DNA from: Bacteroidaceae bacterium
GTDB lineage: Bacteria > Bacteroidota > Bacteroidia > Bacteroidales > Bacteroidaceae
Reading direction: 5' to 3'
Assembly: GCA_017617235.1 (NCBI GenBank)
Contig: JAFZWQ010000031.1
Span: 30,425 to 94,424, forward strand
Length of the DNA: 64,000 bases
Shown here piece by piece: positions 1,782 through 59,251 of the stretch. Below the pieces are notes generated by a model. It saw only the letters and a program-made list of their open reading frames with translations. It searched no databases and was not told the origin of the DNA. The position numbers were made by a program, and so were the translations under genes. Every line of letters begins with the position of its first letter. Position 1 is the stretch's first letter.

Positions 1782-1821
1782 CGGCATTTTTTATTCCCTT
1801 TATTAATTAATTGAGTATTTG

Positions 1822-1853
1822 TTTGCAGATGTAAGATATTATATCTACATTTG
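1822..1853 (+). promoter_or_regulatory. Promoter of the type I RM operon
   Basis: TTTG at 1822-1825, a 20-nt spacer, then TACATTTG at 1846-1853 match the Bacteroidota sigma-ABfr pattern exactly. Transcription should start near 1858-1860, on top of the first ATG of the next gene, so the mRNA would be leaderless or translation begins at the later ATG (1894). Confidence 0.75.
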
Positions 1854-1857
1854 CAGC

Positions 1858-2439
1858 ATGAACACATCGAGTAACTCAATTACTAAAGAAAAAATGAGCT
1901 TAAAAAGGCTTGCAAACATACAATCGGGGGTTTACATAAAGGGGACCCCCACAGGAAACGTTGCCTGTTTGCAGGTCAAGGACATCATTCTGTCTTCTCC
2001 AGAGAAGACGGCTATCCACGTAGAGTTTTCACCAAAGATTGAAAACTATATTCTTCGCAAAGGTGATTTGCTGTTTGCCGGAAAGGGCACTACGTACTTG
2101 TGTCAAGTATTTAACTTCGACATCCTGGCAATTCCTTCTACCACATTGTACGCTATTCGACTACGGACAAACAAAGTTTCTCCAGAATATCTGTGCTGGT
2201 ATATGAATCATCCCAAGGTTAGGGCTATGGTTAAATCGGCACAAGTAGGGACAGGCTCTCCTTTGATTCACAAATCGACATTGGAGAATTTGGAAATCAT
2301 TGTTCCCGACAGAGAGACACAACAACAGATCGTAGAGTTAGCCAACTTACAAAAGCGGGAGGCTTATCTTATTAACCAAATAATGGAAAGGAAAACACAA
2401 ATCACCAATCAGATACTTATTAATGAATTAAATAAATAA
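1858..2439 (+). CDS. Half-size type I specificity subunit (single TRD)
   Basis: This 193-residue protein resembles one half of an HsdS subunit: an N-terminal target recognition domain beginning LKRLANIQSGVYIKG, the region LLFAGKGTTYLC, and the closing IIVPDRETQQQIVELANLQ segment followed by a helical spacer. Full HsdS proteins carry two such units; half-size versions can pair to form a symmetric reader. It sits directly before hsdM (5 nt gap), while a full-length hsdS lies two genes later. The start may be 1858 or 1894; the promoter predicts RNA beginning at about 1858, and the second ATG would then have a normal leader. It either gives the methylase a second specificity or helps assembly. 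Confidence 0.75.
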   Translation: MNTSSNSITKEKMSLKRLANIQSGVYIKGTPTGNVACLQVKDIILSSPEKTAIHVEFSPKIENYILRKGDLLFAGKGTTYLCQVFNFDILAIPSTTLYAIRLRTNKVSPEYLCWYMNHPKVRAMVKSAQVGTGSPLIHKSTLENLEIIVPDRETQQQIVELANLQKREAYLINQIMERKTQITNQILINELNK

Positions 2440-2444
2440 CAGAT

Positions 2445-3974
2445 ATGGATACGACAAAAATTAGTCAGGAGGACATTAACCGCACCGTATGGAAGGCCTG
2501 CGATACGTTTCGAGGAGTGATTGACCCCAGCCAGTACAAAGACTATATTCTTACGATGTTGTTCTTGAAGTATGTGAGCGATGTCTACAAGTCGAAACTG
2601 AGCGACTATCTTATTAAATATAATGGTGACAAGGAGCGTGCTGAACGTGCCATGCGGCATGAACGTTTTGTCGTGCCAGAGAGAAGTTCGTTTGATTTCC
2701 TTTATGATAATAGGAATGCCACCAATATCGGAGAACTGATTGATGAGGCATTGGCAGACCTTGAGGATGCCAATCGTGAGAAGATGAGCAGCGAGGACGG
2801 TAGCAGTATCTTCCGCAATATTAGTTTCAATAGTGCCAACTTGGGTGAACCGAAAGAGAAGAATGCCCGTCTGAAGAACCTGTTGCAAGACTTTCGCGAG
2901 TTGGATTTGGACGAATCGCATTTGGAGAACAACGATATCATCGGTGATGCCTACATGTATCTTGTTTCTACCTTTGCAGGAGAGGCAGGCAAAAAAGCTG
3001 GAGACTTCTTCACGCCAGCAGAGGTTTCTACCCTATTGGCAAAACTGACGAAAAGTAAGCCTGGCGCTCGTATCTGTGATGTTACATGCGGTTCTGGCTC
3101 ATTGTTGATTAAGGCGGGCAAGGAAGTAGAGAACAAAAATTTCTCACTCTATGGTCAGGAAGTGAACGGCAGCACATGGGCGCTCGCCATGATGAACATG
3201 TTCCTACATGGTTTCGACAATGCTGTCATTCGTTGGGGTGACACATTGCGTAATCCTAAACTGAAGGTCAACGACAAACTCATGAAGTTTGATACTGTGG
3301 TGGCCAATCCCCCTTTCTCTCTCGATAAGTGGGGAGCCGAGGATGCTGCCAGCGACCCCTATAACCGTTTCTGGCGTGGCATCCCTCCCAAGAGCAAGGG
3401 CGACTGGGCTTTCATCAGTCACATGTTGGAGGTGGCTGACGACAATACGGGCAAGGTGGGTGTCATCATTCCTCATGGTGTCCTCTTCCGTGGAGGCAGC
3501 GAGGGAAAGATACGTCAGTACATCTTAGAGAACGAACATACTTTGGAAGCAGTTATTGGCCTGCCTGCCAACCTATTCTATGGTACTGGCATTCCTGCCG
3601 CTATTGCCATCTTCCGTAAGGGCCGCAACTCCGAAAACGTGTTGTTCATCGACGCCAGCCGTGAGTATGAGAATGGCAAGAACCAGAACAAACTGCGCCC
3701 GCAGGATATAGAGCATATCGTCACCACTTATCGCAAGTTCGCTGATGGAGAGTTTGCTCCTGGTGTAGCCGAAGACAAATATGCCTTTGTTGCCACCCCT
3801 GATGACATCCGAGAGAATGACTTCAACCTCAATATCCCCCGTTATGTTGATACATACGAGGAAGAAGCCGAGATTGACATCCCTGCTGTTCAGAAGGAAA
3901 TAGAGCAGCTAGAAACTGAACTTGCAGAAGTGCAGGTGAAGATGAAAGAGTATTTAAAGCAATTAGGTTATTAA
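2445..3974 (+). CDS. hsdM: Type I restriction-modification methyltransferase subunit
   Basis: HsdM methylates adenine in the sequence chosen by HsdS and forms the methylase (M2S) and, with HsdR, the restriction enzyme. The 509-residue protein has the N-terminal helical HsdM domain (WKACDTFRGVIDPSQYKDYIL), FTPAEVS near residue 188, the AdoMet-binding motif DVTCGSGSLLI near 212, and the catalytic NPPF near 288. The length is normal and all key motifs are intact. It is the second gene of the operon driven from about 1850; the next gene follows after 19 nt and encodes a membrane protein rather than the expected hsdS. Confidence 0.96.
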   Translation: MDTTKISQEDINRTVWKACDTFRGVIDPSQYKDYILTMLFLKYVSDVYKSKLSDYLIKYNGDKERAERAMRHERFVVPERSSFDFLYDNRNATNIGELIDEALADLEDANREKMSSEDGSSIFRNISFNSANLGEPKEKNARLKNLLQDFRELDLDESHLENNDIIGDAYMYLVSTFAGEAGKKAGDFFTPAEVSTLLAKLTKSKPGARICDVTCGSGSLLIKAGKEVENKNFSLYGQEVNGSTWALAMMNMFLHGFDNAVIRWGDTLRNPKLKVNDKLMKFDTVVANPPFSLDKWGAEDAASDPYNRFWRGIPPKSKGDWAFISHMLEVADDNTGKVGVIIPHGVLFRGGSEGKIRQYILENEHTLEAVIGLPANLFYGTGIPAAIAIFRKGRNSENVLFIDASREYENGKNQNKLRPQDIEHIVTTYRKFADGEFAPGVAEDKYAFVATPDDIRENDFNLNIPRYVDTYEEEAEIDIPAVQKEIEQLETELAEVQVKMKEYLKQLGY

Positions 3975-3993
3975 CACAAAGTGGATTTACGAA

Positions 3994-5007
3994 ATGCAAA
4001 ATCTAATTATTAATTTCTTGTCCAATTATACATTGAGTATTGCAATGGTTCACTTCATTGCTGCTGTTGTTTTGTTTTACTTAGTCAACTGGGTTGGTGC
4101 TCGTTCAATATCTGTCGGTTATATGCAGATGTCTATTATCGCAAAAGAAGAAACAGCGCCAGCGTTTAATTTTCTATTCAAGGTACTTTCTCCTATAGTT
4201 TTTCTTATCCTGTTTATTGTAGTCGTCCAAACACTTAATCACAAAGAATTCGTTCAAGCAAGTTATCTAATTGTAGTATATTATTGGTTATTTCGTACAT
4301 TCGTCATTATACTTTTAGGGCGTAGAAGATTGACAAATTGGAAATTGCACTTTATATACTGGGTGGTATCTATTGTTCTGTCAATCTGGATTTATTCTCT
4401 TGTTGAACAGGTAGATAAACTTTTACCTACTCCTCGCTCTCTATTAGATCAGATGTGGATACTGATAATCATGTTTCTCTATAGTGTGTTTAACAACATT
4501 GAACTCTCACGTGCTGGAATACTAAAACGAAAAGAGGATTATATCTGTCACCAGTATGCTTATTTCAAAAAGAAATACGGTGTTATTATATCAAAGCATT
4601 GTGAAAACGATTTTTATGAAGTGGCTACTTATTCTATCTTGATATGTGAGAATTTTAACCGCCCCACGATTGTTCGTTGGGTTGAGTATTTACGTTTCTT
4701 TTTAACCCGAACACCTCATACATTAGGCGTAATGCAGGTACGCACGAATAAATATATCAATGATGGTAAATCCATAGTTAAAGCCATTGATATTATAAAA
4801 CAGGCGGGCTTAAAACATAAGCAAAAGGTAGCGACAGAGAAAAATGAATATAGTTATGATTCTCCTAATTCTGCGCTCTACGAAATAGCTGGATGCTACA
4901 ATTGCAACAACGTGGACTATCAGTCTGAAGTTTGCAGTATCTATGAAACGGTAAAAGAAAATTATGACTATGTTGAAAGAGACTATGAAAGCATTGTTGT
5001 AGTGTAG
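3994..5007 (+). CDS. Membrane protein of unknown function inside the RM operon
   Basis: I do not recognise this 337-residue protein. The first 170 residues contain about five hydrophobic segments (roughly 14-34, 58-81, 87-110, 116-138 and 148-170). The rest is a soluble, probably cytoplasmic domain of about 165 residues with a late CYNCNN motif. It lies between hsdM and the full hsdS with short spacers (19 and 44 nt) on the same strand, so it should be co-transcribed with the restriction system. Base composition is AT-richer than hsdM and hsdR, as in the other embedded genes, which suggests a separate origin. A membrane protein is not a normal part of a type I enzyme; a role as a defence effector or anchor is possible but unproven. 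Confidence 0.8.
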   Translation: MQNLIINFLSNYTLSIAMVHFIAAVVLFYLVNWVGARSISVGYMQMSIIAKEETAPAFNFLFKVLSPIVFLILFIVVVQTLNHKEFVQASYLIVVYYWLFRTFVIILLGRRRLTNWKLHFIYWVVSIVLSIWIYSLVEQVDKLLPTPRSLLDQMWILIIMFLYSVFNNIELSRAGILKRKEDYICHQYAYFKKKYGVIISKHCENDFYEVATYSILICENFNRPTIVRWVEYLRFFLTRTPHTLGVMQVRTNKYINDGKSIVKAIDIIKQAGLKHKQKVATEKNEYSYDSPNSALYEIAGCYNCNNVDYQSEVCSIYETVKENYDYVERDYESIVVV

Positions 5008-5051
5008 TGGAATGACGGTATGAGTATTAGACAAAATATAGTGTAAATAAA

Positions 5052-6287
5052 ATGAATAAAGAAAGGGTTATACCACAAGGCTATAAAGACTCTCCACTTG
5101 GTATCATTCCAAAGGAATGGGAAGTGAAGAGGTTGGGAGACTATGTTACTATAACAAGTGGGGAGAGTCCGTCATTATATGAATTAAGGGAAACAGGGTT
5201 ATACCCTTATGTCAAAGTTGAAGACTTGAATAACTGTTCAAAATATCAAATTGAAAGCAGAGAGTATTCTAATGACACTAGAAATATCATACCGAAAGGA
5301 AGTATTATTTTTCCGAAGAGAGGTGCTGCGATTCTAAACAATAAAGTACGGATAGCACAGACAGATATTCTTATGGATAGTAATATGATGGCAATTACTG
5401 TAAAAGATAGCTGTCTTGATTATGAGTTTCTATATTATACGATTATTAGAGAGCAATTATACAAAATTGCTGATACTTCTACTATACCACAAATAAATAA
5501 TAAACACATTATACCATATCGCTTTTGTTTGCCATTAATGGACGAACAAAAGAATATTGTATCTTTATTGATAACATGGGATGTTGCCATAGAGAAACAA
5601 TCTAAATTGATTGAAAAACTCACTTTGCGCAAACGTGCATTGATGCAGCAACTCCTCACTGGCAAGAAACGTCTGCCAGGATTTAGTGAGGATTGGAAAG
5701 AAGTAAAATTGGGAGAATTTGGGACTTTTTTCAAAGGTGGCGGTGTTCCAAAAGACAAGATAATTGGAGAAGGACATAAATGCTTAACATACGGAGACCT
5801 TTACACTAAATATGATTTCGTAATTTCTGACGTACAATCTTATATTGACGATGAAACGGCAAATGAAAGTACGGAAATCCAATATGGTGACATTTGCTTT
5901 GCTGGCTCAGGTGAAACCAAAGAGGAGATAGGCAAATGCGCTACATTTATCGATGGAGAATATGGTTATGCTGGAGGAGATATTATCGTATATAGAGCAA
6001 AGGGTGTAAACCCTATCACGCTTTCGTATATTCTTAACTCTGATAATGTCATTAGACAAAAAAGCAATATGGGGCAAGGACATTCTGTTGTACACATTTA
6101 TCCATACCAACTGGAGAAAATCTCAATAAAACTGCCTCCTAAGGAGGAGCAAGATGCTATTGCTTCTATTCTTATGAAAGCAGACAAAGAAATAGGACTC
6201 GCCAATGAGGAACTAACAAACCTAGAATCTCAAAAGCGAGGCTTAATGCAGCAATTATTAACTGGTAAAAAAAGAGTAATAGGATAA
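5052..6287 (+). CDS. hsdS: Type I restriction-modification specificity subunit (two TRDs)
   Basis: HsdS chooses the bipartite DNA target for the HsdM/HsdR complex. This 411-residue protein has the classical layout: TRD1 starting GIIPKEWEVKRLGDYV, a first conserved helical region ending RKRALMQQLLTGKKRL near residue 208, TRD2 starting with EDWKEVKLGEFGTFFKGG, and a second conserved region ending LMQQLLTGKKR at the C-terminus. The two conserved regions are direct repeats at protein level but differ at many synonymous sites. Both TRDs are AT-rich, as expected for horizontally exchanged recognition domains. It is followed after 2 nt by the next gene. Confidence 0.94.
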   Translation: MNKERVIPQGYKDSPLGIIPKEWEVKRLGDYVTITSGESPSLYELRETGLYPYVKVEDLNNCSKYQIESREYSNDTRNIIPKGSIIFPKRGAAILNNKVRIAQTDILMDSNMMAITVKDSCLDYEFLYYTIIREQLYKIADTSTIPQINNKHIIPYRFCLPLMDEQKNIVSLLITWDVAIEKQSKLIEKLTLRKRALMQQLLTGKKRLPGFSEDWKEVKLGEFGTFFKGGGVPKDKIIGEGHKCLTYGDLYTKYDFVISDVQSYIDDETANESTEIQYGDICFAGSGETKEEIGKCATFIDGEYGYAGGDIIVYRAKGVNPITLSYILNSDNVIRQKSNMGQGHSVVHIYPYQLEKISIKLPPKEEQDAIASILMKADKEIGLANEELTNLESQKRGLMQQLLTGKKRVIG

Positions 6288-6289
6288 GT

Positions 6290-7078
6290 ATGGAATCAAA
6301 TATCGCAAAATATCAAAAGGATATTGAGTCTCTATCCCAAAGAGGTCGTCTGCTTTTATTTGGTTTGTATAATGAATTAGGGAAAGAATATAAAATTCCC
6401 AATAATGTGCCAGAAAAAGAAAAAACGCTCTTCAAATCACTTACTTTCATAGACAAATACAATTCATGGTACAACGAGGCTTTAATTGTTGTTAAGCAAT
6501 TAATGCCTGAAAGACTTATTGATTTTATTTCTTATTATAAAATAGAGAAGAGGAAAGATATTGATTATGAGACATACACAATCAGTGATTATCTTATCAA
6601 TCTTAGAGTAACTCAAGGTGCCCGTGTATTAGTTGACACTTCTTCTGTTCTCAATAAGTATACCCAGCAATATTTTATAGTAGAGTCATTAAAAGATAGA
6701 TTCTCAAGTTCTCTATATAACATCAAACAGTTATTGCAAGCTGATTTATTTGATTCAGAGATAGATGCTGCAAGAGAATTATGTAAGAAAGGTTTTTATA
6801 GAGCATCTGGTGCAATTTATGGTGTTGTCATCGAGAAACACCTGAGTGAAATATGCACACAAAGAGAAATTAAAGTCAGTAAAAAGAATCCCGCAATAAA
6901 TGACTACAATCAGTTATTAAAAGATAATGATGTGATAGACACCCCAACATGGCGATATATTCAGAGGCTTGGAGACCTTCGAAACTTATGTGACCATAAG
7001 AAAGCAGAAGAACCAACAGAAAATAATATTAAAGATTTGATAGAAGGTACGGATAAAGTAATAAAGACAGTTTATTGA
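6290..7078 (+). CDS. Hypothetical protein with HEPN-like C-terminal region
   Basis: A 262-residue soluble protein with no clear family in its N-terminal half. The C-terminal third (from about residue 165, RELCKKGFYRASGAIYGVVIE, to WRYIQRLGDLRNLCDHKK) reads like DUF4145 or HEPN-type helical domains. It includes an R-N-x3-H stretch (RNLCDH) that fits the Rx4-6H signature of HEPN RNases. HEPN proteins are frequent toxins or effectors in defence loci. The gene begins 2 nt after hsdS and is followed after 6 nt by a membrane protein, so the two are tightly linked. The HEPN assignment rests on a short motif and secondary-structure impression only. Confidence 0.6.
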   Translation: MESNIAKYQKDIESLSQRGRLLLFGLYNELGKEYKIPNNVPEKEKTLFKSLTFIDKYNSWYNEALIVVKQLMPERLIDFISYYKIEKRKDIDYETYTISDYLINLRVTQGARVLVDTSSVLNKYTQQYFIVESLKDRFSSSLYNIKQLLQADLFDSEIDAARELCKKGFYRASGAIYGVVIEKHLSEICTQREIKVSKKNPAINDYNQLLKDNDVIDTPTWRYIQRLGDLRNLCDHKKAEEPTENNIKDLIEGTDKVIKTVY

Positions 7079-7084
7079 TTTGCA

Positions 7085-7966
7085 ATGAGTCTTGGCACAT
7101 TTATAATAGACTTCTTCACATCAAGGGAATGGGCATCCATTACTCTGATTGCATTATTTGTCCTTCTGTCAGCAAGGGCAAAAAGTGTTAGAGGAAGTAT
7201 ATTAGGAGTCGTAAAAGCATTCTTCCATTGGAAGATACTCCTGCCTATTATTTGTGCCCAGATATATTTATCCATATTTGCATACGCTCTCTATAAATAT
7301 GGTTTGTGGAATACAACAATCTTACGAGAGACAATATTCTTTTTGTTCTACACAAGCATAGCACTTATAATTAAGTATAACAATAACGATGACCGTATCA
7401 CAAGCATCAAGGGGATTGTTGAAGATACAGTAAAGGCAACACTGGTCATAGAGTTTTACCTTAACATTCATACCTTTTCATATGGAGTTGAATTAACCAT
7501 TCAGTTCCTTCTTTGTATTTTATATTTAATGGGGACATTTAATAAAAGAGATACAAAAGAATTGCAGAAAGTAGATGGTTGCACTCAAACTATATTCTAT
7601 TGTCTCTCAATATATTTATTAACCTACAGTATTTACATGTCCATAAACCAATGGAGGGAGAATTTTATGCCACAAAATGTCATATCGCTATTATTCCCTA
7701 TTGTAGCAACAATAGCATATTGGCCCTTTTTTTATCTATTCTCGGTTATAAAAGCTTATGAAGAATGGTTTGTTAGAATGAGGTTTGCGTCAAACAAAGA
7801 AGAATATGGGTTTAGAAAGAAACAAGTCTTTAAAACCTGTAGAATAAATTTGGGCATGATTAATTTTGTGAGTAAAGACTTTCATGTATATATACCACAA
7901 ACACAAGAACAGTTCGTGGAAGACTTAATTAAATCGGTTGAGAAATACAAAACAAAGAAAATATGA
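7085..7966 (+). CDS. Second membrane protein of unknown function inside the RM operon
   Basis: A 293-residue protein with about six hydrophobic segments (near residues 14-32, 47-70, 77-98, 140-158, 172-195 and 205-235) and a basic cytoplasmic tail ending in KYKTKKI. I do not recognise the family. It is not obviously similar to the membrane protein at 3994-5007 beyond general layout. It starts 6 nt after the HEPN-like gene and its stop codon overlaps the ATG of the AlbA_2 gene by 4 nt (ATGA), so it is translationally coupled on both sides. A HEPN-like protein paired with a membrane protein is an arrangement seen in abortive-infection systems; here that is inference. Confidence 0.75.
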   Translation: MSLGTFIIDFFTSREWASITLIALFVLLSARAKSVRGSILGVVKAFFHWKILLPIICAQIYLSIFAYALYKYGLWNTTILRETIFFLFYTSIALIIKYNNNDDRITSIKGIVEDTVKATLVIEFYLNIHTFSYGVELTIQFLLCILYLMGTFNKRDTKELQKVDGCTQTIFYCLSIYLLTYSIYMSINQWRENFMPQNVISLLFPIVATIAYWPFFYLFSVIKAYEEWFVRMRFASNKEEYGFRKKQVFKTCRINLGMINFVSKDFHVYIPQTQEQFVEDLIKSVEKYKTKKI

Positions 7967-9405
7967 TAACTAAGGACGAATTACAGGAATTATTGCAAAG
8001 TACCGAGACATATCGGGTGGAGCGTACAACCTCTACTGGCGATATGGATAAGTTTCAAGAAGCAATCTGTGCTTTTTCCAATGACTTGCCAAACTCCCGA
8101 AAGAATGGATATTTAATTATTGGGGCTCACGATAATGGTACGTTGTCAGGACTAAAAGTAGATGATGCCTTGATGAAAAAGATTGCAGCCATCCGTTCTG
8201 ATGGAAACATCTTGCCATTGCCGATTATGTCTGTTGAGCGTTTTGAGTTTCCAGAAGGTGATTTGCTTGTAGCTGAGGTGTCCCCTTCTTTACTCCCACC
8301 CGTTCGCTATCGTGGAAGGACCTTTGTGCGCGTTGGTCCTCGTCGGGATATTGCAACAGAAGCCGAAGAAAGAATATTATTAGAACGTAGAACTTCATAT
8401 ATGGCGACTTTTGATGCTATGCCTTGCCTGGGGGCAAGCATCAATGATGTTGATACAAACTATATCAAACAGGACTATCTTCCACAGGTGATTGATACTG
8501 AAGTGTTAGCAAGTGACAGGCGTGATATAAAGGAGCAACTGGCCTCCATACATCTTTACGACCTGACACACGATTGTCCGACCAATGCAGCAATTATTCT
8601 TTTTGGTAACAATCCACGTCATTTTTTGCCAGGCTTTTACATTCAATTTGTTCGCTTTGCAGGAAAAACCATTGGAGGGCAGGTCCTCAATGAAAAACGA
8701 TTCCAAGGACCACTCTATCGGCTTCTGCCTGAATTGGAATTGTTTGTAAGCAATGCCATTATTACTCAGAGGCCGATTGCGATAAGTCTGTTTCGCGAAA
8801 AAGCAGTCATCAACTATCCCAACAACGCACTACGCGAATTGTTGATGAATGCGTGTATGCATCGTGATTATCAGTCGAACATGCCTATTCGTCTATATCA
8901 GTTTGACGACCATATTGAGATTATGAATGCTGGCGGACTATATGGTGAAGCACGTCCTGAGAATTTCCCTACAGTCAATGACTATCGGAATCCTATCATT
9001 GCAGAAGCCATGAAGGAGATGAAATACGTTAATATGTTTAATCAGGGTATCAGGCGTGTACAAGAAATGCTTCAAGACAACAATAACAAGGAAGCTGTTT
9101 TTGATGTTTCTAAGTTAACCGTTTTTGAAGTGAATGTTTTCTCAACAGTTGAAGATGTCCCTCAAGGTGATACCCAAGGTGATACTCATGATGATACTCA
9201 AGATGATACTCAAGGTGGTACTCAAGAGAATAATCTTGATTTATGGATAGAGAATCAGATAAAGAAAAATCCCAAAGTGACAACAGAGGAGTTGGCAAGT
9301 TTGAGTAATAAAGGAGTAGCAACGATTAAACGTCATCTTGCAAAACTCTCCCATATCAAATATGTGGGAAGCGGTTATAGTGGACACTGGGAAATAGAAG
9401 AATAG
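7963..9405 (+). CDS. AlbA_2 / ATP-binding / winged-helix protein
   Basis: This 480-residue protein matches the COG2865-type architecture. Residues 5-130 are an AlbA_2 (Schlafen-like) domain with the core GYLIIGAHDNG and LSGLKVDD. Residues about 200-390 are a GHKL-type ATP-binding region with NALRELLMNACMHRDY near 285 and IEIMNAGGLYG near 321. A short acidic repeat linker of GDTQ/DDTQ units lies near 401-421. A C-terminal winged helix (VTTEELASLSNKGVATIKRHLAKL) ends the protein. Proteins of this kind are thought to be regulators and are often found with type I RM genes. The gene lies 7 nt before hsdR, so it may control the operon. Confidence 0.85.
   Translation: MITKDELQELLQSTETYRVERTTSTGDMDKFQEAICAFSNDLPNSRKNGYLIIGAHDNGTLSGLKVDDALMKKIAAIRSDGNILPLPIMSVERFEFPEGDLLVAEVSPSLLPPVRYRGRTFVRVGPRRDIATEAEERILLERRTSYMATFDAMPCLGASINDVDTNYIKQDYLPQVIDTEVLASDRRDIKEQLASIHLYDLTHDCPTNAAIILFGNNPRHFLPGFYIQFVRFAGKTIGGQVLNEKRFQGPLYRLLPELELFVSNAIITQRPIAISLFREKAVINYPNNALRELLMNACMHRDYQSNMPIRLYQFDDHIEIMNAGGLYGEARPENFPTVNDYRNPIIAEAMKEMKYVNMFNQGIRRVQEMLQDNNNKEAVFDVSKLTVFEVNVFSTVEDVPQGDTQGDTHDDTQDDTQGGTQENNLDLWIENQIKKNPKVTTEELASLSNKGVATIKRHLAKLSHIKYVGSGYSGHWEIEE
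9162..9227 (+). repeat. 12-bp tandem repeat in the AlbA_2 gene
   Basis: About five copies of a 12-bp unit close to GGTGATACTCAA lie in frame and encode four-residue units (GDTQ, GDTH, DDTQ, DDTQ, GGTQ). Unit changes keep the frame, so slippage would lengthen or shorten the linker between the ATPase and the winged helix without breaking the protein. Confidence 0.85.
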
Positions 9406-9412
9406 GTCAGAT

Positions 9413-12400
9413 ATGGATAGGATATCATTCAAGGAAAACGATATTAGCCAGAGGCCGGCAGTAGAGTTATTACAGAAGCTGGGGTATCAATATATCTCGC
9501 CAGATGAGGCTTTGGCTATGCGTGGCGGAAAGACTTCCAATGTACTATTGGAGGAAGTGCTGAGGCGGCAGTTACGAGAACTAAACTCTATCAGAATAGG
9601 TACGCATAAGGAGGCACGCTTCTCAGAACAGAACATCGAGAACGGCGTGGTTGCCATGAAAAATGTACCCATGCAGGGCGGTTATCTCAGTGGCAATGAG
9701 GCAGTCTATAACATGCTAACATTGGGCAAGGCTTTTGAGCAGAGTATTGATGGCGATAAGAAAAGTTACACGATGCGGTATATAGATTGGGAACATCCAG
9801 AGAATAACGTCTATCATGTAACAGAGGAGTTTGCTGTAACCCGCACAGGTTCATCAGACACCTATCGTCCTGACATTGTCCTGTTTGTAAACGGAATTCC
9901 ACTGGTCGTTATTGAATGTAAACGACCTGACATCAAAGGGGCAGAGGAACAGGCGATTTCCCAACACCTACGTAATCAGCTGGACGATGGAATCAGGGGG
10001 CTCTATGTATATAGTGCCATGCTGTTAGTCGTAGGAAATAATTTTGGGCGCTACGGGACAACGGGATCCGCAGCTCAGTTCTGGGGAAGCTGGCATGAGA
10101 TGTTCATCAACAAGGAAGAAGAACAAATGTATCATAAAAAAATCTCGACCATCGTAAACGACAGTTGCGAGGAAGAGCGCATCCCTACCCTACAAGATGA
10201 ATACATCTACAATCTTTGCCGCCCCCAAAGACTACTGGAACTTACTTATCATTTTACGATATATGATGCTGGAATAAAGAAACTAGCTCGCTATCAACAA
10301 TACTTTACAGTAAAAGAAACAGTAGAACGTATAAAGCAGATTGAGACCGGCAAGCGCAATGGAGGCGTAGTCTGGCATACACAGGGAAGCGGAAAGTCAT
10401 TGACGATGGTCATGCTGGCACAGAAGATAGCTACCGTAGTGCAAAATCCCCGCATTATTTTAGTAACGGATCGTACAGACTTAGACGCACAAATCACTAA
10501 GACCTTCCGCAAATGTGGCAAGGACGTAAAAAATGCTACAACGGGTAAGATGTTGGTGGAACTGCTGGAAAGCAATACGGATTCTGTGGTTACGACTATC
10601 ATCAACAAATTTGCTACTGCCATTAAGAAAATAAAGCAGCCGTTGACAGACCCGAACATCTTTGTGCTGATAGACGAAGCACATCGTAGCCAGTATAAAG
10701 AGATGGCAATACAGATGAACCGAGTATTGCCCAATGCCTGTAAGATAGCTTTTACGGGTACACCGTTGATGAAGAAAGACAAAAACACGGCACTTACCTT
10801 TGGCGGTATCATCAAGCCTGTATATACTGTAAGGCAGGCCGTGGAAGACCATGCTGTCGTTCCTCTGCTTTACGAAGGGCGAATCGTACCACAGCTTGTT
10901 ACAGAAGGCCCAATAGATAGTTTCTTTGACCGTGTCTGCGAGGACTTGACAGAGGAACAATCAGTTGACTTGAAAAAGAAGTTCTCGCGTACCGATGTAC
11001 TTAATCAGACTGAGCAACGCATCTATTCCATCGCTATGGACATTTCCGACCACTTTGCCAATAGATGGAAAAATACAGGATTCAAGGCAATGCTAGTAAC
11101 CCCAAAGAAACGAGTAGCCATATTGTACAAAAAGTTTCTGGATGAAATAGGCAAAGTTTCATCCGAAGTGCTGATTACAGCACCCGATGACCGAGAAGGA
11201 GAGGAAACGGCCTACGGAGGGACATCGGAAGAGGTGAAAATGTTTTGGAAAGAAATGATTGACGAGCACGGAACACCTAAGAAATATCAGGATAACTTGA
11301 TTGCACGATATAAAGGACAGGCAGAACCTGAGATAATGATTGTCGTGGATAAACTATTGACGGGATTTGACGAACCAAAGGTTGCAGTGATGTATCTCGA
11401 CCGTCATCTGTGTGGACACACATTATTACAAGCCGTAGCTCGTGTAAACCGCACTTGCGAAGATAAGGAATACGGATATATCATAGACTATTATGGAGTA
11501 TTGGCAGAACTGGATAATGCCCTAAGTATTTACTCTGAATACGACGAAGAAGACAAGGAGGTATTCCGCGAGACCCTGACACCCGTCAGTGATAAAATCT
11601 TCGAGCTGCCACAAAAGAATGCCGAGCTATGGGATATGTTCGAGACGATTCCTAACAAACGGGATTTGGAGGCATATGCACAATACCTTCGGCCCGCAGA
11701 CCGCCGTCATGAGTTCTATGACCGTTTGACCGCATTTTCATCGACTCTTCAACTGGCTCTTTCGACAAAAGAGTTCTTTGAGCATACTGATGAGAAAAAC
11801 ATTCAACGATATAAGGATGATTTGAGGATGTTTGCCAAGCTCCGAACGTCTGTCCAACTGCGCTATTCAGATGCCGTCGATTATAAAAAATATGAAAGCC
11901 GGATTGAGAAATTAATTAATCGTCATGTAGAAAGTGACGAGGTTAAGGTTATTACGAATCTGGTCAACATCTTTGATACTGAAAACTTCCAAAAAGAGGT
12001 TGATAACATAGTTGGTATTGCAGCGAAAGCTGATACCATAGCATCACGTACTGCTAAATATATTAAGGAGAACATGGACTCCGACCCAGCGTTCTATAAA
12101 AAGTTCTCTCAACTCATAAAGGAGACCATAGAAGCTTACGAACAAGGACGGCTTAGTGATAATGAATATCTGGAACGAATGATAAAGGCAAAAGGAGATG
12201 TTTTGAATCATACAGATAATGAGATACCCATAGAACTGAAACATAGCAATACGGGAAAAGCCTACTATGGTATTGCGTTAGAGAACTATAAGCGATTATT
12301 CCCCGATCAGGACGTTAAGAAAATAGCACTCAAAACTGCTAAAGCATTTGACCAAATCATTCAAGGTATGGTAGTTGTCGACAATTCCGTGATTATTGAT

Positions 12401-12559
12401 TGGCAGACGAATTCAAACCTTATCGGCCAGGTGAAGATTGCATTAGAGGATGAGCTCATTGACAACGTCAAGCGAAAGTATGAACTTGACTTCTCATTTG
12501 ACGATATGGATGCGATTATTAACGCGTGTGTCGATGTTGCAAAAATATGGATCAAGTGA
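9413..12559 (+). CDS. hsdR: Type I restriction endonuclease subunit R
   Basis: HsdR cuts unmethylated DNA after ATP-driven translocation by the HsdR2M2S complex. The 1048-residue protein has the N-terminal PD-(D/E)xK nuclease (YRPDIVLF and VVIECKRPD, residues ~150-172), the SF2 motor with Walker A TQGSGKSLTMVM near 322, DEAHRSQ near 420, FTGTPL near 447, and a C-terminal helical region for binding HsdM. The length and motifs are complete, so the system looks active. It follows the AlbA_2 gene by 7 nt and overlaps the metallopeptidase gene by 13 nt. Confidence 0.96.
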   Translation: MDRISFKENDISQRPAVELLQKLGYQYISPDEALAMRGGKTSNVLLEEVLRRQLRELNSIRIGTHKEARFSEQNIENGVVAMKNVPMQGGYLSGNEAVYNMLTLGKAFEQSIDGDKKSYTMRYIDWEHPENNVYHVTEEFAVTRTGSSDTYRPDIVLFVNGIPLVVIECKRPDIKGAEEQAISQHLRNQLDDGIRGLYVYSAMLLVVGNNFGRYGTTGSAAQFWGSWHEMFINKEEEQMYHKKISTIVNDSCEEERIPTLQDEYIYNLCRPQRLLELTYHFTIYDAGIKKLARYQQYFTVKETVERIKQIETGKRNGGVVWHTQGSGKSLTMVMLAQKIATVVQNPRIILVTDRTDLDAQITKTFRKCGKDVKNATTGKMLVELLESNTDSVVTTIINKFATAIKKIKQPLTDPNIFVLIDEAHRSQYKEMAIQMNRVLPNACKIAFTGTPLMKKDKNTALTFGGIIKPVYTVRQAVEDHAVVPLLYEGRIVPQLVTEGPIDSFFDRVCEDLTEEQSVDLKKKFSRTDVLNQTEQRIYSIAMDISDHFANRWKNTGFKAMLVTPKKRVAILYKKFLDEIGKVSSEVLITAPDDREGEETAYGGTSEEVKMFWKEMIDEHGTPKKYQDNLIARYKGQAEPEIMIVVDKLLTGFDEPKVAVMYLDRHLCGHTLLQAVARVNRTCEDKEYGYIIDYYGVLAELDNALSIYSEYDEEDKEVFRETLTPVSDKIFELPQKNAELWDMFETIPNKRDLEAYAQYLRPADRRHEFYDRLTAFSSTLQLALSTKEFFEHTDEKNIQRYKDDLRMFAKLRTSVQLRYSDAVDYKKYESRIEKLINRHVESDEVKVITNLVNIFDTENFQKEVDNIVGIAAKADTIASRTAKYIKENMDSDPAFYKKFSQLIKETIEAYEQGRLSDNEYLERMIKAKGDVLNHTDNEIPIELKHSNTGKAYYGIALENYKRLFPDQDVKKIALKTAKAFDQIIQGMVVVDNSVIIDWQTNSNLIGQVKIALEDELIDNVKRKYELDFSFDDMDAIINACVDVAKIWIK

Positions 12560-13254
12560 TACACGACAGCATTCAATATGGGACAACTACAATAGAATAC
12601 GACTTCGATCTTGTCCCAAGAAAGACATTGGGTATCTATGTACATCCTAATGGGAATGTGTTGTTGAAAGCTCCTCTTGATTCCACATTAGAAGCTATCA
12701 GGGAGAAAGTTGAAAAGAAAGCGATGTGGATATTACGGCAAAAACGTTTTTTTGCGTCTTTTACCCCCTCCACTATAGAACGTCGTTATGTAAGCGGGGA
12801 ATCTCATCTATATTTGGGGAGACAATATATGCTGAGAATAAAGGAGAGCGAAATTAATGCCGTTCACTATCAAAGCAACGTCATTGAGATAGAATGCCGT
12901 CAAAAAAAGAATGCTGGTATTTTGCTACAAACATGGTACAGGAAACGTGCAAACATTAAGTTCTTAGAATATGCACAGCCTATTATTGAACAATTTGCTG
13001 TTTATGGTGTATCACCCAAAAGCATTTCGATAAAGATAATGCAAAGGCGATGGGGATATTGTTCTTCGAATGGAGAAATTACATTAAATCCCAGACTTAT
13101 CTGTGCCCCCAGATGTTGTATAGAATATGTAATTACCCATGAAATGTGTCATCTAATTTACCGTAATCATAACAAAAAATTCTACACCCTGCTTACAAAG
13201 GAAATGCCCCATTGGGAGAAATGGAAGGCTAAACTGGAAAGAATGTTAGCCTAA
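12547..13254 (+). CDS. YgjP/SprT-like zinc metallopeptidase (DUF45)
   Basis: A 235-residue protein of the YgjP-like (DUF45, M48-like) family. The zinc site HEMCH lies near residues 198-202, preceded by the family segment RRWGYCSSNGEITLNPRLICAP and followed by a later histidine in RNHNKKFYTLL. These proteins are very often encoded next to type I hsdR genes in Bacteroidota and are presumed to process or regulate the restriction complex; the substrate is unknown. I use the ATG at 12547, which overlaps the end of hsdR by 13 nt, rather than the upstream in-frame start at 12526. Confidence 0.87.
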   Translation: MDQVIHDSIQYGTTTIEYDFDLVPRKTLGIYVHPNGNVLLKAPLDSTLEAIREKVEKKAMWILRQKRFFASFTPSTIERRYVSGESHLYLGRQYMLRIKESEINAVHYQSNVIEIECRQKKNAGILLQTWYRKRANIKFLEYAQPIIEQFAVYGVSPKSISIKIMQRRWGYCSSNGEITLNPRLICAPRCCIEYVITHEMCHLIYRNHNKKFYTLLTKEMPHWEKWKAKLERMLA

Positions 13255-13306
13255 ATTACACGCATACTAGGACACTTATTCCCTATAATACATATTATTA
13301 AGACGG

Positions 13307-13936
13307 ATGAAAGAGCAACGCCTGTACACAATCGGTCATTCCGACCACTCTCAAGAGGAATTCATATCCATGCTTCGCCAATACGAAATTGATTGTATTG
13401 TCGATGTTCGAAGTGTACCTGCCAGCAAACACGTTCCTCAATATAACCAAGAAGAACTGAAATGGCTATTGAAACAAAATGGAATAGCATATCTGCATTT
13501 TGGTAATGAATTCGGAGCACGACGAACAGATTGTATAAATATAGACGGACAGGTTGATTTTGAACGAACCACAGAAACACCTGCTTTCAAGAAGGGGATA
13601 TTAAGAATAAATAAGGGGCTGGAAAGAGGCTTTCATATTGCATTAATGTGTTCTGAGGCCAATCCCTTGGAATGTCACAGATATTCGCTTGTTGCACGTT
13701 TTTTTTATGAACATGGATATGACGTACAACATATTCTACATGACGGGACATCGGTATCGCATGCTATACTTGAAAGAAAGATGATTGAAGAGCTTCTGCA
13801 TTCTAGAAAATATCATCTTGCAAAGACAGATCCCCTGTTTGGATCTTACACAGAGGAGGAACAACGAACAGATGCATATCGGCTGAAGAATAAGGAAATC
13901 GGCTACCGTCCGCAGGAAGAATATGAAATCGACTAA
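13307..13936 (+). CDS. DUF488 family protein
   Basis: A 209-residue DUF488 protein. Visible family features are YTIGHS near the N-terminus, the DVRSVP segment near residue 30, and the MCSEANPLECHR box (cysteine, acidic residue, CHR) near residues 113-124. The function of DUF488 is not established; the conserved cysteines suggest metal binding or catalysis. It follows the metallopeptidase after 52 nt and its stop overlaps the next ATG (TAATG), so the two downstream genes form a coupled pair at the end of the RM operon. Members occur in many defence islands next to nucleic-acid enzymes. Confidence 0.85.
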   Translation: MKEQRLYTIGHSDHSQEEFISMLRQYEIDCIVDVRSVPASKHVPQYNQEELKWLLKQNGIAYLHFGNEFGARRTDCINIDGQVDFERTTETPAFKKGILRINKGLERGFHIALMCSEANPLECHRYSLVARFFYEHGYDVQHILHDGTSVSHAILERKMIEELLHSRKYHLAKTDPLFGSYTEEEQRTDAYRLKNKEIGYRPQEEYEID

Positions 13937-14892
13937 TGGATAAAACTTTTATTTGTCTTGCTAATTCATATAAACGCGGGGGACGTTGCATTGCCGGTGT
14001 TGAGGTCATGATTGATGAGAACCGACATTGGACAGTTGTTCGCAATCCCAATGGCACTCCCCACTGGATACGACCAATTGACAACACCACAGAGTTTGGA
14101 GAAATTCCCGAATTCGAAGCTGTACCTATTCGTCTGCTATCTGTTATACGTCTTAGAGATGTTACTCCTTGTTTATGTAAGGCTCATTCCGAGGATGTCA
14201 GTTTTTCACGAATGGAAATTATAGGGAGTATACTCCCCTGCAAAGCGGCCTTAGAGGAAATGGCAGATTTTCTTCATCATGAAATCTTTTACAATAATGA
14301 AAGTGCCATATCACTTGACATTTATGCCCAAGGAAACTATTCTCTAATGCTCGTTCGTCCGGAAAGGATTGAATTACGTCCCGATATGACCAAACTGAGA
14401 GCAAAATACCGAATGATTATATCATATCATGGGACAACTTATGATCTGCCTGTTACTGACCCTGATTATCTTCGAGAATTAGAGAACACCCCATCTACGC
14501 CTATTCCACCTCATGAGGCATATCTGTGTCTTTCACTCGGAATGGAGTTTGAAGGACAACATCACAAACTAATAGCTGGTGTTATCATTCCATCGGACAG
14601 GAATGTAAGTACACCCCATATCATCAAAGGAAATGATGCCACACTATGGGAAACATTTGAGATCCGTCCTTTCACATTATGGGAACGCCTAACTATAAAA
14701 TCAGCCACATATATCCCCTCTTATAGAGGCCCCTCCATCTACCTGCGTAAATGGAACGGAGATGAATTATTTCTACCTTTTGAAAATGCGCCTAAGTTGG
14801 AAGCATGGACAAAAATCAGTTTACGAAAGACGCTCCTCGTGACCTACGAAGACGAAAGTGGGACCAAAGTTCAAAGAATTCGGCTGAAATAG
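13936..14892 (+). CDS. Partner of DUF488, possible dual OB-fold protein
   Basis: A 318-residue protein beginning MDKTFICLANSYKRGGRC, a start I associate from memory with proteins annotated as carrying a dual OB-containing domain that are encoded beside DUF488. Two beta-rich halves of about 160 residues are compatible with this (first half around CIAGVEV and ITRPID-like strands, second half from YLCLSLGMEFEGQHHKLIAGVII). Both halves contain an alternating hydrophobic pattern and a similar GV(E/I) core. OB folds usually bind nucleic acid. It is the last gene of the island and ends 10 bp before the right copy of the flanking repeat. The family assignment is unverified. Confidence 0.65.
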   Translation: MDKTFICLANSYKRGGRCIAGVEVMIDENRHWTVVRNPNGTPHWIRPIDNTTEFGEIPEFEAVPIRLLSVIRLRDVTPCLCKAHSEDVSFSRMEIIGSILPCKAALEEMADFLHHEIFYNNESAISLDIYAQGNYSLMLVRPERIELRPDMTKLRAKYRMIISYHGTTYDLPVTDPDYLRELENTPSTPIPPHEAYLCLSLGMEFEGQHHKLIAGVIIPSDRNVSTPHIIKGNDATLWETFEIRPFTLWERLTIKSATYIPSYRGPSIYLRKWNGDELFLPFENAPKLEAWTKISLRKTLLVTYEDESGTKVQRIRLK

Positions 14893-14902
14893 ATATATTG
14901 TA

Positions 14903-15327: not shown

Positions 15328-15444
15328 TTTTTCACTTTTCACTTTTCACATTTCACTTTATTTCGTATCTTTGAGAGAAAAGTCTCTAAAATACTCCCGT
15401 TCGGAAAAACCCAAATAAATTTGGTTTTTCGCTCACTTATTCGT
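15303..15444. repeat. 28-bp inverted repeat carrying both divergent promoters
   Basis: The arm 15303-15330 pairs with 15417-15444 with a single mismatch. Each arm contains the TTTG box, a spacer with GTGAGCGAA or its complement, and reaches into the TAnnTTTG box of its own gene (yraN to the left, lysS to the right). The 86 bp between the arms contain ttcacttttcac filler and a further TATCTTTG at 15366-15373. Confidence 0.85.
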
Positions 15445-15451
15445 ATCTTTG
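15420..15451 (+). promoter_or_regulatory. lysS promoter
   Basis: TTTG at 15420-15423, 20 nt, then TATCTTTG at 15444-15451. RNA should start near 15457, giving a leader of about 50 nt before the lysS ATG. Confidence 0.75.
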
Positions 15452-15505
15452 CACGCGACACATATAAATTGTAAATAGTAAATCGTAAAATTGTAAATTA
15501 TCTCG

Positions 15506-17281
15506 ATGAATATATTGGAACTGAGCGAACAGGAGATAGTTCGCAGAAACAATCTTCAGCAACTGCGCGACCTGGGCATCGACCCCTACCCCGCTGCAGA
15601 ATATCCCGTAACAGCTTGGAGCACGGACATCATTCAGGACTTCGTTGACCTGCCCATTATCGGCAAGGACGAAGAGGGCAATGATGTGCGCGAGACTGCC
15701 ACACCAGAGAACAGCCCCGTTGTAAGCGTAGCTGGTCGTATCATGAGCAAGCGCATCATGGGTAAGGCTGCCTTTGCCGAATTACAGGACTCAAAGGGCC
15801 GCATCCAGGTGTACGTACAGCGTGACGCCATCTGTCCTGACGAGAACAAGGACCTCTACAATATCGTCTTCAAGAAGTGCCTGGACCTGGGTGACTTCAT
15901 TGGTGTGAAGGGTTATGTCTTCCGCACCAAGACGGGTGAGATTAGCGTCCACGTAATGGAGATGACCGTGCTGAGCAAGAGCCTGAAGCCTCTGCCTATC
16001 GTAAAGACGGATGCCGAGGGTAACGTGTTCGACTCATTCGATGACCCTGAGCTCCGCTATCGTCAGCGTTACGTTGACCTTATCGTGAACAACGGTGTAA
16101 AGGAAACCTTCCTGAAGCGTGCCACCATCATCCGCACCATGCGTAAGATTCTGGACGATGCAGGATATACCGAAGTGGATACTCCTATCCTGCAGAACAT
16201 CCCCGGTGGTGCCAGTGCCCGTCCCTTCATGACTCACTTCAACGCCCTGAACCAAGACATGTACATGCGTATCGCCACAGAGTTGTACCTGAAGCGTCTG
16301 ATTGTAGGCGGCTTCGAGGGCGTGTACGAGATGGGCAAGAATTTCCGCAACGAAGGAATGGACAAGACCCACAACCCCGAATTTACCTGCATGGAGCTGT
16401 ACATCAGCTACAAGGACCTGAACTGGGGAATGACCTTTACGGAGAATATGCTGGAGCAGATCTGTACAGCCGTCAACGGTAAGCCCGAGGTGGAGATTGA
16501 CGGTAAGGTTATCTCTTTTAAGGCTCCTTTCCGCCGTCTGCCTATCCTGGATGCCATCAAGGAGAAGACAGGCTACGACCTTTATCCCATGAACGAGGAT
16601 GAGATTCGTGAGGTGGCCAAGAAACTGAACATCGAGGTTGACGAGACCATGGGTAAGGGCAAGCTGATTGACGAGATCTTCGGTGAAACCTGCGAGGGAA
16701 CTTTCATCCAACCCACCTTCATAACCGACTATCCTGTTGAGATGTCTCCCCTGACCAAGATGCATCGCAGCAAGCCCGGTCTGACTGAGCGCTTCGAGTT
16801 GATGGTGAACGGTAAGGAGTTGGCCAACGCCTACTCTGAGTTGAACGACCCCATCGATCAGGAAGAGCGCTTCATCGAGCAAATGAAACTGGCAGACAAG
16901 GGTGATGACGAAGCTATGATTATCGACCAGGATTTCCTGCGTGCCCTGCAGTACGGTATGCCTCCCACCTTTGGTATCGGTATCGGTATCGACCGTTTGG
17001 TGATGCTGCTCACAGGTAAGTTTGCCATTGGCGAGGTCATGCTGTTCCCCCAGATGAAGCCCGAGGTAAAGGCTCCACGCGACAAGGATGAGCTGTTCCT
17101 GGAGAAAGGCATTCCTGCCGAGATTATCCCCATCCTGCGTAAGGCTGGATACAATCTGGTAAGTACACTAAAGGATGAAAATCCCGCCAAGATTCAACAA
17201 CAGATTATCGAAATCATAAAGAAATACAAGCTGGAAGTTGAGCGTCCATCGCAAGACGAGATAAAAGTCTGGACGGAGTGA
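15506..17281 (+). CDS. lysS: Lysyl-tRNA synthetase, class II
   Basis: LysS charges tRNA-Lys with lysine using ATP. The 591-residue protein has the N-terminal OB anticodon-binding domain (VAGRIMSKRIMGKAAFAEL, residues ~74-150) and the class II core, with motif 1 near YVDLIVNNGVKETF, motif 2 FRNEGMDKTHNPEFT near residue 280, and motif 3 GIGIGIDRLVMLLTG near residue 490. About 80 residues follow motif 3; this C-terminal extension (ending EVERPSQDEIKVWTE) is typical of Bacteroidota LysS. gpsA follows in the same direction. Confidence 0.97.
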   Translation: MNILELSEQEIVRRNNLQQLRDLGIDPYPAAEYPVTAWSTDIIQDFVDLPIIGKDEEGNDVRETATPENSPVVSVAGRIMSKRIMGKAAFAELQDSKGRIQVYVQRDAICPDENKDLYNIVFKKCLDLGDFIGVKGYVFRTKTGEISVHVMEMTVLSKSLKPLPIVKTDAEGNVFDSFDDPELRYRQRYVDLIVNNGVKETFLKRATIIRTMRKILDDAGYTEVDTPILQNIPGGASARPFMTHFNALNQDMYMRIATELYLKRLIVGGFEGVYEMGKNFRNEGMDKTHNPEFTCMELYISYKDLNWGMTFTENMLEQICTAVNGKPEVEIDGKVISFKAPFRRLPILDAIKEKTGYDLYPMNEDEIREVAKKLNIEVDETMGKGKLIDEIFGETCEGTFIQPTFITDYPVEMSPLTKMHRSKPGLTERFELMVNGKELANAYSELNDPIDQEERFIEQMKLADKGDDEAMIIDQDFLRALQYGMPPTFGIGIGIDRLVMLLTGKFAIGEVMLFPQMKPEVKAPRDKDELFLEKGIPAEIIPILRKAGYNLVSTLKDENPAKIQQQIIEIIKKYKLEVERPSQDEIKVWTE

Positions 17282-17409
17282 CCCCACCCCCAATCCCCTC
17301 CCGAGGGAGGGCCATAGATACGAACACAAAGATATATGAATATAGGAATGGGCATAAGCGGCAATAGTAACCACTCCTCCCCCTCGGGGGAGGTTGGAAA
17401 GGGGGTCGG
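17282..17409. repeat. Two GC-rich repeat units in opposite orientation around the gpsA start
   Basis: Unit A (17282-17313) and unit B (17374-17409) each contain a short palindrome of the CCTCCC-GAGGGAGG kind beside a CCCCA/CCCCC run; B resembles the reverse complement of A. Such units recur between genes in Prevotella-like genomes. Unit A directly follows the lysS stop codon and unit B lies inside the gpsA reading frame. The two could pair over the gpsA start region. Confidence 0.7.
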
Positions 17410-18391: not shown

Positions 18392-18431
18392 GCAGTTTTT
18401 ATATGACAACAAACTATAAAACACATAAAAA

Positions 18432-53511: not shown

Positions 53512-53534
53512 AGGCGTAGTTATAGAGCAATTAA

Positions 53535-54206: not shown

Positions 54207-54214
54207 ATTTCTTG

Positions 54215-54316
54215 TTATTCTGATTGTTCTACAATTTTGATTTCTTCCTCTGTTAAAGCATATAACTGATAAACGAGGCGGTCGATTTCGGATTCAAAGA
54301 ACCGTTCTGTGGTCAA
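54215..54316 (-). pseudogene. Remnant of a methyltransferase C-terminus
   Basis: The reverse strand encodes FESEIDRLVYQLYALTEEE followed by IKIVEQSE and a stop at 54215-54217. This matches the end of the intact methyltransferase (ESEIDRLVYQLYGLTEEE then ILVVEKVS, stop at 56099) with several substitutions, and 17 bp in the middle are identical. No start codon or upstream part of the gene remains. The similarity fades upstream of FESE. Confidence 0.85.
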
Positions 54317-54323
54317 AGAGGAT

Positions 54324-54692: not shown

Positions 54693-54727
54693 TGCTTTAT
54701 TTATATAACTCGCTGTGTGACATGCTC

Positions 54728-55990: not shown

Positions 55991-56048
55991 AATTACCAAA
56001 TACTATTATCTTTCCAACCGAAAAAACTTTATTAGATCGCTGGCCTTT

Positions 56049-56056
56049 GCAAAAGT
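56049..56056 (-). promoter_or_regulatory. Possible SIR2 promoter box
   Basis: TACTTTTG on the reverse strand, 58 nt before the SIR2 ATG, in the 108-bp gap after the methyltransferase. No TTTG partner was found at the right distance. Confidence 0.45.
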
Positions 56057-56098
56057 AGGAAATATTTTCAAAACCATCACGTTTTATCAACTTTTTCT

Positions 56099-59170: not shown

Positions 59171-59251
59171 AGGGCTTAGCTATTTTGAAAACTTTGAACT
59201 TCGTTCGAACTTTTCTCGCCTCAGCAGATGAGCAAGCTCTCTGCGTTCGGC

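Follow-up and report, generated by a model that had tools for sequence, protein, structure and literature searches.

Why would a type I restriction-modification (RM) operon carry genes that its enzyme does not need? This question is raised by a locus near the start of a 64,000-nucleotide stretch of DNA from a Bacteroidaceae bacterium (GenBank assembly GCA_017617235.1, contig JAFZWQ010000031.1, positions 30,425 to 94,424 of the forward strand), hereafter called the window. Eleven open reading frames (ORFs), g1 to g11, follow one another there on the + strand, and ORFs unrelated to RM lie between the genes for HsdM, HsdS and HsdR. These occupy two positions: slot 1, between hsdM and hsdS, which holds the membrane protein gene g3, and slot 2, between hsdS and hsdR, which holds g5, encoding a HEPN-type protein, and g6, encoding another membrane protein. 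The answer that we favour, and consider rather likely, is that the operon is a platform for exchangeable defence cargo in these two slots, whose proteins most likely work independently of the enzyme although the RM operon drives their expression.

As judged from its sequence, the locus is a complete type I RM operon. Family assignments were made by searching the window proteins against Pfam, NCBIfam and PADLOC 2.0.0, and HsdR, HsdM and HsdS genes were found together, with their catalytic motifs present. A first-pass annotation of this DNA had described an eleven-gene operon in which a type I system in a defence setting holds genes that it does not need, and this was borne out. All eleven ORFs appear in the ORF list of the window at the coordinates first given, the ATG of g1 at 1858 being internal to an ORF that the list starts at a TTG (1819). 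The intervals from g1 to g11 are 5, 19, 44, 2, 6, -4, 7, -34, 52 and -1 nucleotides (nt; negative values are overlaps). The spacing originally described, gaps of 2-44 nt or overlaps, holds within hsdM-hsdR (-4 to 44) and fails further down, where one gap is 52 nt.

Related operons were gathered by HsdR similarity. From the 208 candidates found in genome contigs, we retained the best 80, representing 79 loci. Searching 301 genomes of the same family added three more (L018-L020); six of these genomes, the window's own included, encode HsdR at E <= 1e-200; the family search also returned two duplicates (L016 = L022 and L017 = L026). Among the resulting 82 loci, 61 carry hsdM, hsdS, hsdR and ygjP in this order, and the other 21 comprise four without a called hsdR ORF, 14 without an upstream hsdM and three without hsdS in the stretch examined. 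This backbone occurs in Bacteroidales, where HsdR is 79-99% identical, and extends to other phyla, where the identity is 38-51%. The gene ygjP directly follows hsdR in 61/61 loci, and an hsdS-like gene is located just upstream of hsdM in 48 of the 61. The constant part of the operon is made of a half-length hsdS, hsdM, hsdS, hsdR and ygjP, and the half-length HsdS of the window (1858-2439) belongs to this backbone. Window-type copies of the AlbA_2 gene g7 (80-93%) occur in nine loci, one of them a mere piece, and g7 is a semi-constant accessory adjoining hsdR. The DUF488 and dual-OB genes 3' of ygjP (PDC-M45B/A) are shared as a pair only by L021 among the compared loci, and their place after ygjP is a possible third cargo position.

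What lies in the slots varies beside these kept genes, and the loci can be classed on this basis as rlo/mlo-like operons, named after the hsd loci of Campylobacter jejuni. When same-strand ORFs of at least 120 amino acids (aa) were counted, window-type AlbA_2 genes excluded, both slots were found to be filled in 44 of the 61 loci, one in 11 and none in six (one of these cargo-free loci, L092, has two smaller ORFs). Sequence clustering of the 205 cargo ORFs gave 118 clusters. Even among scored loci whose HsdR is at least 79% identical to that of the window, all cargo sets differ (19/19).

The cargo of these relatives is rich in defence genes. Representatives of 94 of the 118 clusters matched 479 PADLOC models at 1e-5, versus 28 for 94 flanking ORFs used as a control (taken from the same contigs, where 298 were eligible, with at most two per locus), a contrast that is overstated because a single ATPase or cyclase matches dozens of models. 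Among the matches listed (25 of 479) are CBASS cyclases, AbiL, AriA, HEC-01A, PtuA and PDC-S05/S66, and the Pfam families represented include SMODS, SAVED, ThsB_TIR, SduA_C, RhuM and YhcG_C. For example, slot 2 of L024 encodes a Pycsar cyclase (PycC, 1e-87) together with PycTM (5e-31), and cargo elsewhere includes an RT-nitrilase (3e-225; L029), a TIR protein (PDC-S66, ThsB-like; L025) and an AriAB relative (L044). Fic, Bro-N and HAD cargo families correspond to PDC-S04, PDC-S13 and PDC-S34, and the PDC families matched by relatives' cargo are S04, S05, S10, S13, S34 and S66. Three of ten cargo proteins scanned, from GNAT-like, 570-aa and 239-aa families, gave no PADLOC match. The wider idea of the first-pass annotation, that such an operon holds defence cargo, is upheld.

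Two recurring contents of slot 2 were observed in addition. The 570-aa family (cluster c13; L036:7564-9276, L042 and L043) has no Pfam or PADLOC match and is a candidate embedded gene. A set composed of clusters c5 (twice), c11 and c12 recurs in L034, L037 and L046, appears TIR-like by eye and from Pfam tallies, and is common to Bacteroidia metagenome-assembled genomes (MAGs) and Ferruginibacter paludis.

Cargo families tend to keep their slot. The 147 placeable cargo ORFs, which form 88 clusters with the AlbA_2 cluster left out, yield 167 same-cluster gene pairs from different loci, and 163 of these share a slot; 5000 label shuffles gave a mean of 83.3 slot-sharing pairs and a maximum of 119, a comparison that overstates significance because the loci are related. 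When only the most divergent pair of each cluster was considered, the slot agreed in 22 of 25 cases, and in 15 of the 18 cases where the hosts' HsdR proteins are less than 60% identical (sign test p 0.004). The two slots also reassort: of the pairs formed by the 40 loci that have cargo in each slot, 71 have a slot-1 family in common, 44 a slot-2 family and five both kinds. Homologous exchange between the hsdM and hsdS ends, or inheritance, may create slot constancy without a functional rule. As far as titles and the opening lines of abstracts reveal, the literature contains no report of cargo families keeping their slot across phyla, and the full texts of Payne et al. 2024 and Miller et al. 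2005 may contain one. A more elaborate proposal would treat the operon as a chassis with two sockets that have rules: position would set the expression of the cargo or its meeting with the Hsd complex, the proteins of the two slots would for this reason be of different kinds, families would keep their slot across phyla, and the slots would reassort. The window would then hold in slot 1 an effector with a lysozyme fold and a membrane anchor, and in slot 2 a HEPN RNase watching DNA modification systems, both being new embedded defence families. We regard this proposal as doubtful.

Exchange can be followed directly in L021, from a Bacteroidales MAG (RUG12681). The chromosome downstream of the operon (window 15402-20428) has 84-85% DNA identity between the two, and L021 is taken to represent another species because this DNA differs by 15-16%. 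By blastn, identity to the window is 93.7% over 1791-5140 and 96.0% over 7099-14897, and the backbone proteins are 97-99% identical, with hsdS divergent and another gene standing where the window has HEPN. Resolved into 150-nt intervals, identity is 97-100% in the half-hsdS and most of hsdM, and again in hsdR past its first ~490 nt, ygjP and the DUF488 and dual-OB genes, where most intervals reach 99-100% and single ones 97-98%; it is 85-91% in g3, mostly 88-100% in g6, 76-95% in g7 and 79-93% at the start of hsdR. The region at ~5141-7098, which covers the hsdS specificity regions and the HEPN gene, is other sequence in L021. A shared block in which this region has been replaced indicates that the operon moves as a block, and that hsdS and the neighbouring cargo were replaced in one of the two lineages.

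Transfer of the operon as a block also fits a reading of the cargo genes as neutral hitchhikers, in which the slots would tolerate insertions and be maintained through RM addiction and through homologous recombination at hsdM and hsdS. The window's cargo then need not be defensive. Allele exchange alone could give the slot constancy described above, and the six loci without cargo of at least 120 aa fit this explanation as well. The excess of PADLOC matches in cargo over flanking ORFs speaks against it, and we judge it very improbable.

Table 1. Features of the operon in the window, with the block shared with L021.
Feature	Position	Strand	Basis
g1, half-length HsdS, one specificity domain	1858..2439	+	Pfam Methylase_S 9.3e-10
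g2, HsdM, N6-adenine methyltransferase	2445..3974	+	N6_Mtase 3.1e-99, HsdM_N 2.5e-26, TIGR00497, NPPF motif
g3, slot 1 cargo, membrane protein	3994..5007	+	~5 helices, 165-aa C-terminal part, faint resemblance to lysozyme/SLT
g4, HsdS, two specificity domains	5052..6287	+	Pfam Methylase_S 2.5e-34 in two stretches
g5, slot 2 cargo, HEPN-type putative RNase	6290..7078	+	sub-cut-off Pfam HEPN, R-N-x3-H motif
g6, slot 2 cargo, membrane protein, 5-6 helices	7085..7966	+	no family
g7, SLFN/AlbA_2 + HATPase_c_4 + weak HTH	7963..9405	+	Pfam 2.8e-15, 1.5e-13
g8, HsdR, type I restriction/translocase subunit	9413..12559	+	TIGR00348 2.4e-143; Walker A, DEAH, PD-ExK-type motifs
g9, YgjP-like metallopeptidase	12526..13254	+	Pfam 7.8e-53
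g10, DUF488, PADLOC candidate PDC-M45B	13307..13936	+	Pfam 9.4e-21; PADLOC 1.1e-58
g11, dual-OB, PADLOC candidate PDC-M45A	13936..14892	+	Pfam DuOB 5.8e-30; PADLOC 1.9e-24
Block common to window and L021	1791..14897		blastn + mafft

The embedded genes of the window itself are probably defensive. HEPN ribonucleases carry an Rx4-6H motif in the C-terminal HEPN region, and an R-N-x3-H motif is present in all 11 g5-family sequences checked, the window included (six of the 13 other phylum genomes with matches lay outside this check). The original description of g5 as HEPN-like is upheld by this motif and falls short at the profile level, where the Pfam HEPN match has an E value of 0.055 and 14.1 bits against a cut-off of 22; the best homologue reaches 0.0034 and 18.0 bits, also under the cut-off. 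Pfam detects no ATPase domain in g5, and no PADLOC 2.0.0 model matches it at E 1. A homologue exists in one other genome among the 301 family genomes, matches occur in 13 other genomes among 385 of the phylum, mostly partial, and a plasmid search gave 26 records, four of them over most of the length. Within the 82 type I loci, the only g5 relative resides in L033, without g6 and without AlbA_2.

Six closer relatives of g5 are found outside type I operons (L007, L015, L118, L119, L120 and L121). No hsdS or hsdR match lies near those of L007, L118 and L015 (for L015, among ORFs listed at >= 180 aa only), and L120 is a short contig. The other two also have no hsdS or hsdR match. In L119 (6772-9583), a D12-class adenine methyltransferase gene (1e-20) is located two genes on from the HEPN relative, and in L121 (6650-8698) an N6-type adenine methyltransferase gene (N6_Mtase 9e-22) directly follows it. 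That HEPN and g3 relatives elsewhere are all solitary would be too strong a statement, given these two methyltransferase genes and an HNH gene in L117. At 1491-6951 of L007, beside the relative, a 1426-aa protein has, by eye, a protease-like start and an ATPase-like part, and it adjoins a 399-aa protein that is metallo-beta-lactamase-like by eye.

These neighbours are relevant to the explanation offered in the first-pass annotation, a backup arm set off when restriction fails. In a coupled form of it, the HEPN and membrane proteins would be silenced by HsdRMS and released when a phage inhibits restriction. PrrC and EcoprrI provide a precedent for such coupling (as presented in a portion of PMC2610378), the genes are tightly spaced with one 4-nt overlap, and two of the six HEPN relatives outside type I operons are near adenine-methyltransferase genes, which keeps the coupled model alive and lowers our confidence in the platform reading. 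However, many unrelated cargo families are found on the same backbone, some relatives of HEPN and g3 have no hsdR or hsdS match in their neighbourhood, and an embedded system, TgvAB, protects without HsdR activity, with the whole cluster performing better (according to an excerpt of PMC11411939). We consider coupling of this kind unlikely.

Five hydrophobic segments were found in g3, in agreement with the five-helix protein first proposed, and searches of Pfam, NCBIfam and PADLOC gave no credible match. Its homologues occupy slot 1 of L021, L022 and L033 and also occur outside type I operons (L117 and Rhizobium L014). In five sequences, the C-terminal part shares an invariant Glu, T-x-G-x-M-Q-V and Y-N, and the order Glu, GxMQ, YN is one that we take to resemble lytic transglycosylases. 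This family pattern is present in four of 1177 ORFs of the collected loci, and all four are g3 family members (one locus is counted twice). Comparison of g3 with 27 SLT domains of relatives using hhalign gave a score of 23.5 at a probability of only 7.6-24.8%; column shuffles scored 12.1 +/- 2.1, with 0/150 reaching 23.5 and a highest value of 22.3, and the reversed profile scored 13.9. No SLT or lysozyme match for g3 was found in Pfam or, by sequence, in the PDB. By our reading of the charge rule, the C-terminus would be cytosolic, and such a domain would not reach peptidoglycan. A lysozyme-like domain in g3 is thus a weak lead, suggested by sequence patterns.

For g6, five hydrophobic segments exceed the threshold, and a sixth, as originally assigned, is plausible by eye. 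No Pfam, NCBIfam or PADLOC family was found, a CARF_2M match at E 0.95 being taken as chance. The single g6 relative in the 82 type I loci belongs to L021 (91%), where HEPN is absent, and relatives at 23% that carry an extra C-terminal domain are located on Salmonella and Arcobacter plasmids. A search of the 301 family genomes for g6 retrieved, apart from the window, a single fragment interrupted by six stops, and plasmid searches gave distant matches for g3 (one) and g6 (three). Scans of viral contigs with g3, g5 and g6 alignments found no relative, and PDB sequence searches with these alignments found nothing credible. A phage origin of g3 and g6 is not supported, as neither has a match in the phage collection (HEPN was not searched there).

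The tight coupling of g5, g6 and g7 (6290-7078, 7085-7966 and 7963-9405) had been taken to suggest one functional module, and gaps of 6 and -4 nt are what a dedicated three-gene system of HEPN, g6 and AlbA_2 would display. The neighbours are reshuffled in the relatives, however. HEPN occurs without g6 and AlbA_2 in L033, g6 and AlbA_2 occur without HEPN in L021, and eight loci have the window-type AlbA_2 gene with neither HEPN nor g6; HEPN and g6 are together only in the window among the 82 loci. This largely refutes the module, on a small sample for HEPN and g6, and a three-gene system is extremely unlikely. The embedded set does not recur as a whole either, an outcome that the first-pass annotation had named as a refutation, although parts of it do, as g3 with g6 in L021 and as g3 with HEPN in L033. 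Within g7, window positions 9152-9240 contain five overlapping repeats at 12-nt spacing, which give D-T-Q-G/D in the protein, and the copy number differs by eye in the relative L016/L022. This array is in frame and was not read as a phase switch.

Several observations weigh against the platform reading. The PADLOC counts are inflated, with one ATPase or cyclase matching dozens of related models, and the PDC models are themselves derived from embedding and are thus partly circular as evidence. For the window, g3, g5 and g6 match no PADLOC model, and it is their position that suggests a defence role; the HEPN profile matches of g5 and of its homologue are under the cut-off; and the sample contains just one relative each of HEPN and g6 within operons of this type. 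The contexts outside type I operons also count here, since two of the six HEPN relatives (L119 and L121) are close to adenine-methyltransferase genes and the g3 relative of L117 is directly downstream of an HNH endonuclease gene.

Embedding of defence genes in type I operons is already known; to this the operon adds three unclassified genes, and its relatives a tendency of cargo kinds to keep their position. In C. jejuni hsd loci, rlo genes lie between hsdR and hsdS and mlo genes between hsdS and hsdM (Miller et al. 2005, as cited in parts of PMC5183652 and PMC2610378). These are likewise variable intervening ORFs at the same two positions, but C. jejuni belongs to another phylum, the window backbone adds a constant half-hsdS and ygjP, and the likeness drawn here is one of gene order. 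The RRDM island of enteropathogenic Escherichia coli (EPEC) has the order rptR-hsdM-hsdS-darTG2-hsdR-metallopeptidase, at a site that its authors regard as a potential recombination hotspot (excerpts of PMC12255303). As in the window backbone, a metallopeptidase gene follows hsdR, and the interval from hsdS to hsdR holds defence genes, whereas its DarTG2 cargo is found between hsdS and hsdR only and a gene for the repressor RptR comes first; its metallopeptidase is M48 according to the same excerpts and is likened to YgjP by position only.

Three further comparisons are informative. TgvAB of Vibrio cholerae VPI-2 gives phage defence from within a type I RM operon (passages of PMC11411939) and parallels the window in having two extra genes inside the operon, although its cargo is a GmrSD-like type IV restriction system. 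The PDC families originate from a guilt-by-embedding search (Payne et al. 2024 preprint, as cited in parts of PMC12988326 and PMC12255303); g10 and g11 match PDC-M45, whereas g3, g5 and g6 match no PADLOC 2.0.0 model. Finally, PrrC is silenced by EcoprrI and freed by a phage peptide (portion of PMC2610378), and, like g5, it comes from a nuclease gene (putative for g5) that is linked to a type I operon. ABC-ATPase motifs mark PrrC, an anticodon nuclease, in contrast to the HEPN-like g5, in which no ATPase domain was found.

A second defence-like cluster lies on the - strand of the window at 52699-62575. It includes an SNF2-type helicase (PADLOC C3a139 HKD+Snf2, DrmD-like), a type IIG-like methyltransferase, a protein with weak DrmC/MkoB matches, and a SIR2_2-domain protein at 54728-55999 whose match is just below the cut-off.

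If the operon is a platform, HsdRMS would restrict unmodified DNA, and the cargo genes, read together with the RM genes, would independently counter phages that escape it. HEPN g5 would cut RNA on infection, and g3 and g6 would act on the membrane or envelope. The slot cargo is exchanged, in one observed case along with hsdS, and the operon also moves between species as a block. The data show this exchange, the architecture, the wealth of defence genes in relatives' cargo, slot constancy and the existence of homologues outside type I operons. We infer the activity of each cargo protein, the autonomy of the cargo, the triggers to which it would respond and its expression from one transcript.

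The tendency of families to keep their slot raises the question of whether position matters for cargo function or is a trace of homologous exchange. Should the platform reading be true, a gene in either slot of this easily recognized backbone would be a defence candidate, and the operons would offer a search list with a built-in control in their constant genes. The genes g3, HEPN g5 and g6 would then represent three new candidate families.

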